A stretch of 35,695 nucleotides of DNA. It comes from Candidatus Uhrbacteria bacterium CG10_big_fil_rev_8_21_14_0_10_48_16. Its GTDB lineage: Bacteria > Patescibacteriota > Patescibacteriia > UBA9934 > GWF2-40-263. Positions 25,127-27,417 of the stretch are shown here, in pieces. The DNA is taken from contig PFEU01000007.1 of the NCBI GenBank assembly GCA_002793515.1, positions 1-35,695 on the forward strand. Direction: 5' to 3'. Position 1 is the stretch's first letter. Each line of letters opens with the position of its first letter. Position numbers and translations under genes: made by a program. The notes beneath the pieces were generated by a model that ran no database searches, had not been told where the DNA came from, and was given only the letters and a program-made list of their open reading frames with translations.

Positions 25127-26938
25127 ATGAACCAAGAAGAAAAGGATACCTTGTATATTCGAGCAAAGAAGCATGTCGAACACACATGTTTTTCTATTCG
25201 TCATTCCGTATCAGAAATCCGCAAGTCGATCGCAAAGAAACAGGATGAATACAAAACATTAGATCCCGGTGAGAAATTCATCTTCTCAAAACTCCTCCAG
25301 CACGAAGAGACACGTGCTTATGAGTTAGATCACCTCAAACGTTCTCCTTTTTTTGTAAAATGCGAAATCACTATTGATGGGGAGCAGAAGAACTGGTATT
25401 TTGGCAAGTTTGGTCACAAAGAGTCTGATATTTTCTCTTGGGTAACTCCGGCGGCTGCCATCCGATTTGAAACACCCGGTCATTTTTCTTACGTTCCGAA
25501 AGACAAGAAGATTATTCAAGGCCAATTGCACGCGAAAGATCAATACATGATCGTCGACGGGAAGATTCTCTTCTTCACGACGGAGTCCGAAGAGCATCCA
25601 CGCGAGCTTATTTACCAAGAACATTTTTCCGCTCGAAAAACAGGTTTTGTCCTGCCAGAGATCGTGGCTCAAATGGAGCGTGCACAGGACCAAGTGATTC
25701 GCGCCAGTCACGAAGGGCCATTTGTGATATCGGGGCCTGCAGGCTCAGGAAAAACAACCTTGGCCCTCCACCGTATTGCCTATCTTGTTCAATCGCCTGA
25801 AACGACCGAACGCTTCCCCCCTGATTCGATCATTGTGTTCGTTCAAGACGAAGGGACAAAAGATTACTTCTCACATATCCTTCCGGAACTTGGGATCGAA
25901 CACGTGACCATTACCACGTTTGCCCAATGGGCCATGAAGATTCTGAATAGACAAGACGTTGTGTTCGCGGAGAGAATCGGCGAAACAGAAGAAGAGCGAG
26001 ATCATTATGAGTTAGTGAAATTGAAAGTGTTGCAGTCACTCTCAAGCACTCCCTTAAAATCAGAGAAAGACATGTTTAAAACCCTTGAGCATGCCTACAC
26101 ATCATCCTTTTCTCCTGCACAGCAAACCCTTTTCAAACAGCAAGTTCGTGAACGAATTCTGGACCGCTTTGATCTGACGATCTTATTGAGTCTCATGCAT
26201 ACCACGTCAGGAGCACTCAGCATGATGAAGGAATATTATCTTGAACTCAAAAATGGAGCCTTGAAAAAGAAGATCGGGGCACTCCCCATCGGATACTCCC
26301 TTGTCGTGGTAGATGAGTTTCAAAACTACCTGCCAGAACAAATTCAGCTCATGAAAACCTGTAAGCACGATCAGCTTCCCTCCATGGTGTTTGTCGGGGA
26401 TATCGCTCAGCAGATACAGCTCGGAACACTTAAGAGTTGGTCAGAAATTGGGGAACAGATTGCGGACGAACGACTCGTGACGCTCAAAAAAGTCTATCGG
26501 AATACAAAAGAGATCCTCTCGTTTGTGAAGTCGCTCGGCTATCCCGTTCACATTCCATCACAAGTGAAGAGCGGAAAGCCTGTCCATGAAGTTCACACGC
26601 AAGATGCGCAAGAAGAAATTGCCTATATCCATCAACTGGCAGAAACGCTTGAAGATGGCCAAACGATCGGCGTTCTGTCGCGACATCGGGCGTACTTGGA
26701 ACCGTTTGTCTCTGCTTTTAAAGACAATAACTCCATACGCGTTTTTGACATCAAGGAAGCACAAGGTGTCGAGTTCGATATCGTCTGTCTTGTTGGTGTC
26801 CAAAAAGATACCTTTACTGCCCCAGAGGACCACCCCGAGAAACAACGCATTCTCAAAAACCTCCTCTACATCGCCCTCACACGAGCCATGTCCGAGTTGC
26901 ATATTCTTGGTAAGGAAAAACTAAAGAAACTCCGCTAA
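25127..26938 (+). CDS. UvrD/Rep superfamily 1 helicase, HelD (helicase IV)-like
   Basis: GPAGSGKTTLALHRIAYL, VVVDEFQNY, QGVEFDIV, LLYIALTRAMSELHI. Confidence 0.85.
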   Translation: MNQEEKDTLYIRAKKHVEHTCFSIRHSVSEIRKSIAKKQDEYKTLDPGEKFIFSKLLQHEETRAYELDHLKRSPFFVKCEITIDGEQKNWYFGKFGHKESDIFSWVTPAAAIRFETPGHFSYVPKDKKIIQGQLHAKDQYMIVDGKILFFTTESEEHPRELIYQEHFSARKTGFVLPEIVAQMERAQDQVIRASHEGPFVISGPAGSGKTTLALHRIAYLVQSPETTERFPPDSIIVFVQDEGTKDYFSHILPELGIEHVTITTFAQWAMKILNRQDVVFAERIGETEEERDHYELVKLKVLQSLSSTPLKSEKDMFKTLEHAYTSSFSPAQQTLFKQQVRERILDRFDLTILLSLMHTTSGALSMMKEYYLELKNGALKKKIGALPIGYSLVVVDEFQNYLPEQIQLMKTCKHDQLPSMVFVGDIAQQIQLGTLKSWSEIGEQIADERLVTLKKVYRNTKEILSFVKSLGYPVHIPSQVKSGKPVHEVHTQDAQEEIAYIHQLAETLEDGQTIGVLSRHRAYLEPFVSAFKDNNSIRVFDIKEAQGVEFDIVCLVGVQKDTFTAPEDHPEKQRILKNLLYIALTRAMSELHILGKEKLKKLR

Positions 26939-26973
26939 ACAAAAGACACGATCATGATGATCGTGTCTTTTGT
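26939..26973. terminator. Terminator between the helicase and tRNA-Glu (convergent)
   Basis: AAAAGACACGATCA tga TGATCGTGTCTTTT. Confidence 0.85.
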
Positions 26974-27048
26974 TGGTGACCCCAGGGGGAGTCGAACCCC
27001 CCTTTCCAGGATGAAAACCTGGCGTCCTAACCGATAGACGATGGGGCC
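26974..27048 (-). tRNA. tRNA-Glu (anticodon TTC), CCA encoded
   Basis: GGCCCCATCGTCTATCGGTTAGGACGCCAGGTTTTCATCCTGGAAAGGGGGGTTCGACTCCCCCTGGGGTCACCA. Confidence 0.95.
27027..27048. repeat. Direct repeat copy 1 = tRNA-Glu nt 1-22
   Basis: ctaaccgatagacgatggggcc, identical to 27331-27352. Confidence 0.97.
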
Positions 27049-27287
27049 GAATATTTGTCCTTGAGTTCCTTACGAATTCGGCCTGATTTTTTGATAAGGA
27101 TCTCTCGTTGTCTTGCTTCTCGCAAAGTTGAAAAGGTCTCCGTATGGACAAGTCTATACGGGATGTATGGCTTAGTCGAGCGAACCTTTCCTGCATTATG
27201 ATAATTCAAGCGAAGTGATACATCTTGAGTGCAACCAATGTACCACCTCCCAACAAGTTCACTTTCTATGACGTAGACGTGGTACAT
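27027..27287 (-). CDS. Small GIY-YIG nuclease-domain protein; stop codon lies inside the tRNA-Glu gene
   Basis: HVYVIES...WYIGCTQDVSLRLNYHNAGKVRST...EARQREILIKK; ends ...KYSAPSSIG* using GGT TAG of the tRNA D-loop. Confidence 0.88.
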   Translation of the reverse strand: MYHVYVIESELVGRWYIGCTQDVSLRLNYHNAGKVRSTKPYIPYRLVHTETFSTLREARQREILIKKSGRIRKELKDKYSAPSSIG

Positions 27288-27295
27288 AGGCGTCT

Positions 27296-27330
27296 CCGGC
27301 CTAAAGGCCGGACCAGGCCTTTAGGCCTGG
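27296..27330. repeat. Tandem palindromes CCGGCCTAAAGGCCGG and CCAGGCCTTTAGGCCTGG
   Basis: 6-bp and 7-bp stems with complementary loops TAAA/TTTA; can also form one longer hairpin CCTAAAGGCC ggacca GGCCTTTAGG. Confidence 0.95.
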
Positions 27331-27352
27331 CTAACCGATAGACGATGGGGCC
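27331..27352. repeat. Direct repeat copy 2 = detached 5' fragment of tRNA-Glu
   Basis: ctaaccgatagacgatggggcc, 22/22 identical to the intact tRNA 5' end. Confidence 0.97.
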
Positions 27353-27388: not shown

Positions 27389-27417
27389 ATCATAGAAAAA
27401 AAATCTTCGATCGTCAA
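27389..27417 (-). promoter_or_regulatory. Presumed original tRNA-Glu promoter, now upstream of the GIY-YIG element
   Basis: Minus strand TTGACG-17-TATGAT, ~30 nt before the tRNA 5' fragment. Confidence 0.65.

Follow-up and report, generated by a model that had tools for sequence, protein, structure and literature searches.

A small GIY-YIG nuclease gene beside a split and rebuilt tRNA-Glu gene: a probable minimal mobile element in ultra-small bacteria

Why would a tRNA gene carry a second copy of its own 5′ end about 300 bp upstream, with a nuclease gene in between? The question is raised by contig PFEU01000007.1 of Candidatus Uhrbacteria bacterium CG10_big_fil_rev_8_21_14_0_10_48_16, analysed here over positions 1 to 35,695 (hereafter the window). 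The first 22 nt of an intact tRNA-Glu gene, GGCCCCATCGTCTATCGGTTAG, occur at 27027-27048 on the minus strand and, identically, at 27331-27352, with a start-to-start distance of 304 bp. Direct reading and a repeat search both confirmed this exact copy, and an 86-aa GIY-YIG open reading frame (ORF) lies between the repeats, as a preliminary description of the stretch had stated. We propose, with moderate confidence, that the unit is a minimal mobile element targeting tRNA-Glu genes, made up of an Slx1/UPF0213-type GIY-YIG gene and a replacement tRNA 5′ end.

Anatomy of the occupied tRNA-Glu(TTC) locus

Read along the minus strand, the locus begins with a predicted native tRNA promoter (TTGACG, 17 nt, TATGAT; 27389-27417; direct reading), followed in the native promoter-proximal position by the displaced tRNA-Glu 5′ fragment, nt 1-22 (27331-27352). 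A 36-nt double palindrome, CCAGGCCTAAAGGCCTGG TCCGGCCTTTAGGCCGGA (27295-27330, with arms at 27298-27309 and 27316-27327), interrupts the fragment after nt 22, at the 3′ edge of the D-loop; it folds as a single-stranded DNA hairpin with z = -2.95. Past the palindromes stands GACGCC (27294-27289), which is tRNA-Glu nt 23-28. The displaced copy therefore comprises nt 1-28 with an insert after nt 22, and at other loci its continuation is longer. The GIY-YIG ORF (27027-27287) and the complete, regenerated tRNA-Glu(TTC) (26974-27048; ARAGORN; Rfam RF00005, 58.5 bits, locus L001) complete the order. Apart from the ORF and the two adjacent perfect palindromes, the interval between the 22-nt copies is empty. 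The earlier claim that nt 1-22 were duplicated holds in that these are copied exactly, and falls short in that the copy resumes past the palindromes; also overlooked were three points treated below: palindrome positions are clade-specific, such palindromes are dispersed, and this genome holds another copy.

The repeat is not a chance match, since it repeats exactly the tRNA 5′ end and the same layout returns at dozens of unrelated loci. In the repeat search it could be stretched into the leader, to 27 nt at 93%. The final codons of the ORF and its stop TAG lie within the tRNA, the TAG in the D-loop, and the predicted promoter would read through displaced fragment, nuclease gene and intact tRNA alike. 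The same promoter layout also precedes an empty tRNA-Glu(TTC) gene in a genome of the same genus (G003; TTGACG...TATGAT), and other occupied loci. Directly behind the tRNA, on the same strand, a perfect 18-nt inverted repeat (26938-26974) is a probable transcription terminator.

Two familiar kinds of element were rejected for this locus. A tyrosine-integrase element does not fit 304 bp with a single ORF and no integrase, an absence that the preliminary description had recorded correctly, nor does it fit regeneration of the 5′ instead of the 3′ end. A group I intron with a homing gene does not fit a tRNA that is complete behind the insert, where Rfam finds only the tRNA.

Recurrence, empty sites and target specificity

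Is the arrangement peculiar to this locus? From the order of the host we gathered 99 GIY-YIG ORFs in 91 loci, chosen by protein similarity and not by position; this sample leans toward relatives of the window protein, and its loci are not fully independent. A same-strand tRNA gene lies within 400 nt of 77 of the 99 ORFs (about 2% expected by chance), and an opposite-strand one is near only 2. Such an association far exceeds what sample bias or non-independence could plausibly give. The general layout consists of a promoter, a displaced tRNA fragment that palindromes split at the D- or anticodon loop, the GIY-YIG ORF and an intact tRNA. In the 5′ class, to which the window belongs, the displaced 5′ fragment precedes the ORF, and the ORF mostly ends 6-60 nt upstream of the intact tRNA. 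The displaced 5′ fragments reach nt 28 to 71, and displaced and intact copies are identical over 21-36 nt, or 71 nt at L099, the locus with the longest fragment. Targets of this class in the order are tRNA-Glu, Gln, Asn, Ser, Gly, Thr and Trp.

The anatomy extends beyond the order. In an independent, phylum-wide sample, 22 of 33 ORFs adjoin a same-strand tRNA, and a displaced fragment was found in 11 of the 17 5′-class loci tested, nearly always followed or interrupted by palindromes. Elsewhere in the phylum the layout was found at Glu, Ser, Gln, Lys and Tyr tRNAs, and contigs of Bacteroidota and Flavobacterium carry it at tRNA-Arg and tRNA-Leu. In one of these contigs the order is mirrored, and a palindrome-interrupted 3′ fragment follows an intact tRNA-Ser. 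The ORF C-termini extend into tRNA 5′ ends in the window, at L007 and in the Bacteroidota tRNA-Arg elements, which bears out the earlier suggestions that other isoacceptors would be targeted and that such C-termini would be read from tRNA genes.

In a 3′ class, the ORF lies about 80-250 nt behind the tRNA, and conserved hairpin blocks begin directly after CCA. Examples of these blocks are CGTCGTTCGCGAACGACGTGGCCTGCCAC, CGTAAAAACACC...GGTGTTTTTACGTG and CCGAGCTGAGCTCGG, seen at L017, L018, L020, L023, L029-L031, L086, L088, L093 and others; no Rfam family matched them in the loci scanned.

Several further arrangements were noted in passing. At L130 (G013:C6:25500-26500), two nearly identical 109-bp units stand in tandem upstream of an intact tRNA-Glu; each holds a displaced tRNA-Glu 5′ fragment and a palindrome without the nuclease, and looks like a non-autonomous derivative. 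The tRNA-Asn genes behind the elements at L012 and L109 carry a further anticodon insert, a candidate group I intron by resemblance. A GIY-YIG ORF at L074 (G029:C17) is flanked by an inverted repeat of about 29 nt whose right arm enters RNase P RNA-like sequence (GAGGAAAGTCCGAACACCCCGC); this is a possible insertion at rnpB, and no Rfam match was found there. GIY-YIG ORFs also lie within inverted repeats of the cattgcgaggagcg...gcaatct type, which resemble miniature inverted-repeat transposable elements (MITEs), at L092, L116 and L126, possibly the autonomous form of that repeat. Another, at L117 (G004:C6), stands between terminal inverted repeats of about 22 nt (CCCAGTAGTACAATTTTGAT) with no tRNA nearby.

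If these units are mobile, some tRNA genes should be found without them. The 0.99-Mb host genome itself holds a second, decayed copy at its other tRNA-Glu gene, with anticodon CTC (G000:C15, L002). Its 26-nt repeat matches its own tRNA-Glu(CTC) and differs from the window's tRNA; the first half of the ORF is gone and the palindromes are degraded. In two genomes of the same genus (G004:C25 and G005:C21), flanks orthologous to this locus enter the intact tRNA directly, with no duplication. That syntenic locus is occupied in G037 and empty in G002, G003, G005, G053 and G057, and at the tRNA-Glu(TTC) locus G050 is occupied while G053 and G057, of the same genus, are empty. At the empty tRNA-Glu(TTC) of G003, which stands in a different context, the promoter is followed by 18 nt and the intact tRNA. 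Most tRNA-Glu genes among 59 relatives are likewise single. The search of relatives proposed earlier found empty sites to be common, with repeats that match each locus's own tRNA, so two of the outcomes named there as refuting did not occur. For the sister copies, the syntenic empty sites uphold the reading that an insert pushed the native 5′ end of the tRNA aside and supplied it anew.

Two side observations concern the tRNA-Glu loci of this genus. A Glu-type element at the start of G004:C4 (L053/L066) is truncated where the contig ends, barely inside the nuclease gene; the tRNA repeat probably interrupted assembly there. Behind the tRNA-Glu of the decayed copy (L002, 1690-2320), hairpins separate three imperfect repeats, each of which closes with the tRNA 3′ end (ATTCCCCGTGGGGTCACCA). 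Related repeats trail tRNA-Glu genes of other genomes and form a separate, ORF-less family of 3′-end repeats.

Does the nuclease follow its host or its target? On a tree of 37 5′-class proteins, the target tRNA requires 10 changes (minimum 8; shuffled mean 23.6; none of 200 shuffles as low), and the host family 16 (shuffled 15.3; 172 of 200 as low); the alignment has about 75 columns and many forks are weak. The only Gln member of the Glu clade sits at a tRNA that shares the D-arm ATCGTCTANNGG, that is ATCGTCTA..GG. Palindrome position also goes by clade. Within the Glu clade the L007/L009 pair has it at nt 35 and the other members at 21-22; for Asn it is 20 in L014/L016, 12 and 28 in L096/L109, and 9 in L010/L012; it is 32 in Gly (L081/L082) and 21 in Ser (L026/L072/L097). 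From the sequences, this clade-wise pattern is what target-specific mobile genes would be expected to give, and vertical inheritance does not predict it. Recurrence, empty sites and a nuclease tree that tracks the target tRNA instead of the host together point to a family of minimal, tRNA-specific, target-regenerating mobile elements.

The same evidence bears on three other explanations. A resident repair-type GIY-YIG gene could sit, immobile, beside a tandemly duplicated and decaying tRNA gene: slippage makes partial tRNA duplications, and UPF0213 proteins are ordinary in bacteria. We regard this as very improbable, for it is contradicted by the syntenic empty sites within the genus, by two independent loci in one genome, by the same layout at many tRNAs in two phyla and by a tree signal that belongs to the target. 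Equally hard to credit is that a recombinase acting in trans moves an integrative element in which the GIY-YIG gene is only carried along and the direct repeat is the attachment site. In its favour, attachment sites classically lie in tRNA genes, and such elements typically have direct repeats at their flanks. Against it, the 304 bp hold no recombinase gene and none was seen in the compared elements, and the palindromes in the displaced fragment, the copy lengths of 28-71 nt and the match between clade and tRNA type would be left unexplained. The pair might instead serve the host, for example if the nuclease and the palindromic leader regulated expression or processing of the tRNA transcript. 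The predicted sharing of one transcription unit with an essential tRNA, and the stop codon inside that tRNA, would suit such a role. It is nevertheless improbable, given the patchy presence of the element and its absence from tRNA-Glu in most relatives, and given that tRNAs have been kept beside decayed copies (L002, L131 and L132) and GIY-less remnants (L130).

The nuclease and a proposed route of insertion

What kind of enzyme does the element encode? The 86-aa protein matches PF01541 (GIY-YIG; E = 2.2e-11), and Y5, Y16-I17-G18, R26, H30 and E62 are invariant among 8 relatives; no NCBIfam family scored above threshold for it. AlphaFold predicts a confident single domain (pLDDT 91). Foldseek ranks 1zg2 (UPF0213 BH0048) first, Slx1-Slx4 at 2-8 and I-TevI at 13, and phmmer against 1zg2 gives E = 1e-7. 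UPF0213 structures have been classed in the Slx1 family, whose prokaryotic representatives are minimal, branched DNA being the substrate of the eukaryotic enzyme (PMC1564403). The window protein shares the GIY-YIG fold and the active-site residues and has no auxiliary domain; the C-terminal DNA-binding region of I-TevI and Seg enzymes is absent, the catalytic domain filling nearly all 86 residues. With UPF0213 and Slx1 nearest by sequence and fold and I-TevI more distant, the protein is not an I-TevI/Seg homing endonuclease, though the locus behaves as a homing target; the T4 seg-type assignment proposed at first finds no support. A phage, plasmid-like or viral origin was also considered and rejected, as searches of the phage collection and the viral contigs turned up no relative of the window protein. 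The nuclease family is present in 171 of 287 sampled genomes of the phylum.

We then propose a model for how such an element could spread. The nuclease would break an uninterrupted tRNA-Glu gene in its 5′ half, in the region from the D-loop to the anticodon loop, and the break would be repaired from an occupied copy, with the tRNA gene providing short homology on both sides. The repaired locus would then read promoter, native 5′ fragment (displaced and no longer a tRNA), nuclease gene and intact tRNA, the last rebuilt from the element's own copy of the 5′ end. The palindromes most likely mark the break site or are placed by the same enzyme, and would render the displaced fragment inert.

Several observations weigh against this model. 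Immunity is the chief problem. Nothing separates the regenerated tRNA from those of empty sites (75 of 75 positions identical in G003; likewise in G004), so the element has no sequence immunity and a sequence-specific cutter would cut its own locus; the palindromes would protect only the displaced fragment. Tandem displaced units at L130, L010 and L109 suggest that the target stays open, and unequal recombination would also produce them. The enzyme is a catalytic fold of about 80 residues without an added DNA-binding domain and resembles structure-specific nucleases. As for recurrence, 22 of the 99 ORFs have no ARAGORN tRNA within 400 nt, several of these being cases of contig-end, masked or interrupted tRNAs, and the displaced copy was not detectable at L006, L018 and L129. 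A search through the neighbouring helicase gene gave no orthologous empty site for the window's own insertion: homologues of this helicase occur in 5 relatives, none beside a tRNA, and in the same-genus loci examined tRNA-Glu has neighbours other than the MFS and helicase genes. Occupied and empty orthologous sites with host-independent spread accordingly characterise the sister copies and not the window's site. The self-homing endonuclease first envisaged is weakened by the absent sequence immunity and by the type of nuclease, and its cutting of uninterrupted tRNA-Glu genes is a proposal; displacement and regeneration of the tRNA end are supported.

Palindromes, known systems and implications

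Could the palindromes themselves be what is moved? Displaced 5′-class fragments carry one to three of them, and of the 28 insert points mapped at 23 loci, the D-loop (nt 13-22) has 14 and the anticodon loop (nt 31-38) has 9; these 23 points lie in or at the edge of a loop (p = 5e-5 against a uniform distribution). At L153 (Parcubacteria SURF_31), upstream of the nuclease gene, a displaced tRNA-Glu fragment bears three different palindromes after about nt 12, 22 and 35, a dead fragment in which palindromes have accumulated.

The 30-nt double palindrome of the Glu/Gln elements, TCCGGCnnnGCCGGA YCCGGCnnnGCCGGR, is a dispersed repeat. Copies away from the element number 19, 2, 14, 0, 10, 0, 7 and 6 in the eight genomes with an intact nuclease (the figure for G050 being among the matches listed), against a mean of 0.5 in the others; outside tRNA loci, G013 has 19, G031 has 14, G038 has 10, and G037 and G042 have none. 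It is dispersed in 6 of 8 Glu/Gln-nuclease genomes and 9 of 50 others (Fisher p = 0.0025; Mann-Whitney p = 4e-5; kinship ignored). Some copies lie in phase 0 within protein genes (L133, L136, L138, L141 and L144, G013; L149, G031): dnaJ, a GyrB-type ATPase gene, a GatB/YqeY-domain gene, a PIF1-like helicase gene, nusB and secA. There they add ten residues of the form SGxAGSGxAG. A distinct palindrome, CCTGCCTGCCGGCAGGCAGG, is precisely inserted in Asn, Gly and Ser displaced fragments, and in G027, G036 and G050 the single genomic copy found adjoins a GIY-YIG gene. The exact combination of tRNA-Glu and 30-nt palindrome occurred in none of 381 genomes of the phylum; that precise pairing therefore seems confined to the order, whereas the anatomy extends beyond it.

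It is tempting to speculate that the system mobilises palindromes, in a manner of working like that of REP-RAYT systems, with the Slx1-like enzyme recognising DNA hairpins as the real mobile substrate. Palindromes would enter the loops of tRNA-gene hairpins, which are single-stranded when the DNA is replicated, and would also enter protein genes as in-frame units of 30 nt. Beside a tRNA the nuclease gene would persist because the locus is transcribed and the tRNA end regenerated. The dispersal of the 30-nt palindrome mainly where a Glu/Gln-type nuclease is present, together with its in-frame copies, keeps this rival alive. The precise insertion of CCTGCCTGCCGGCAGGCAGG in displaced fragments, its single copies beside GIY-YIG genes, the nearest fold (Slx1) and the other GIY-YIG genes inside inverted repeats (L092, L116, L117, L126 and L074) also speak for it. 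Against it, the association across the 59 genomes is a correlation only; dispersed copies occur without a detectable Glu-type nuclease in G048, G049 and G016, and G037 and G042 have the nuclease without dispersed copies. The window's 36-nt variant is unique in its genome, with no other copy there or in 5 relatives. On balance we consider this explanation rather unlikely. A slightly better, still tentative chance goes to a broader proposal, that the Slx1-like GIY-YIG enzymes abundant in Patescibacteria are mobility enzymes of an unrecognised, hairpin-acting class. Such enzymes would place palindromes into tRNA loops and in frame into protein genes, and would spread their own gene by splitting and rebuilding tRNAs, without recombinase, splicing or site immunity.

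Known palindrome families offer partial parallels. Rickettsia palindromic elements are short palindromes dispersed in frame in protein genes, an effect similar to that of the in-frame 30-nt palindromes here, and to our knowledge no enzyme has been assigned to them. REP-RAYT systems pair palindromes with an enzyme that mobilises them, the HUH tyrosine transposase RAYT; the enzyme described here is a GIY-YIG protein. We know of neither system being built around tRNA genes.

The closest analogue of the preferred reading, a tRNA-targeting mobile element, comes from fungal mitochondria, where the endonuclease ORFs called mORFs (Allomyces atp6; Glomus atp6, atp9, cox2 and nad3) displace a gene end and bring a replacement (PMC3630166). 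In both cases a free-standing endonuclease ORF is carried with a replacement end that keeps the gene functional, and one Glomus case is GIY-YIG. In the window, native promoter and leader precede the displaced fragment. The mORFs concern protein genes, 3′ ends and foreign replacement ends in an organelle and are mostly LAGLIDADG, whereas the elements described here concern bacterial tRNA genes, mostly 5′ ends and identical replacements, with an 80-aa Slx1-like nuclease and palindromes. T4 SegB, a free-standing GIY-YIG homing endonuclease in the phage tRNA region between tRNA-Arg and tRNA-Ile (PMC2988022), likewise adjoins tRNA genes, but it targets the intergenic region and no tRNA is split or rebuilt. 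The UPF0213/prokaryotic Slx1-like family (PDB 1zg2, 1ywl; PMC1564403), the best match in sequence and fold and also a single minimal catalytic domain, has been treated as DNA-repair-like and vertically inherited, in contrast to the mobile, tRNA-tied gene proposed here. In rRNA genes of the same bacterial group (CPR), GIY-YIG ORFs occur in non-intron inserts and were judged unrelated to homing; most rRNA inserts lie at the top or base of stem-loops (PMC11270868). These too are GIY-YIG ORFs in a structured RNA gene; the parts of that paper available to us are silent on tRNA genes and end regeneration.

In the open-licence literature, which leaves most subscription journals and bioRxiv outside, we found no paper linking bacterial GIY-YIG ORFs to tRNA end regeneration or to palindromes. 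The tRNA-splitting, end-regenerating GIY-YIG elements appear to be undescribed, and if the hairpin explanation holds they are possibly a new kind of element. They affect tRNA annotation in such genomes, since a displaced fragment looks like a tRNA 5′ end and may interrupt an assembly, as at G004:C4. They also raise the question of what, if there is no sequence immunity, keeps the element from cutting its own tRNA, and connect to palindromes that add ten in-frame residues to essential proteins. Hundreds of similar elements of about 300 bases, each specialised for one kind of tRNA, seem to be spread across ultra-small bacteria. If our reading is right, one of the commonest orphan nuclease families of these bacteria would gain a life style, that of a tRNA-specific selfish element of about 300 bp and among the smallest protein-coding mobile elements, and a strategy known in fungal mitochondria would also apply to tRNA genes of bacteria, and to 5′ ends.
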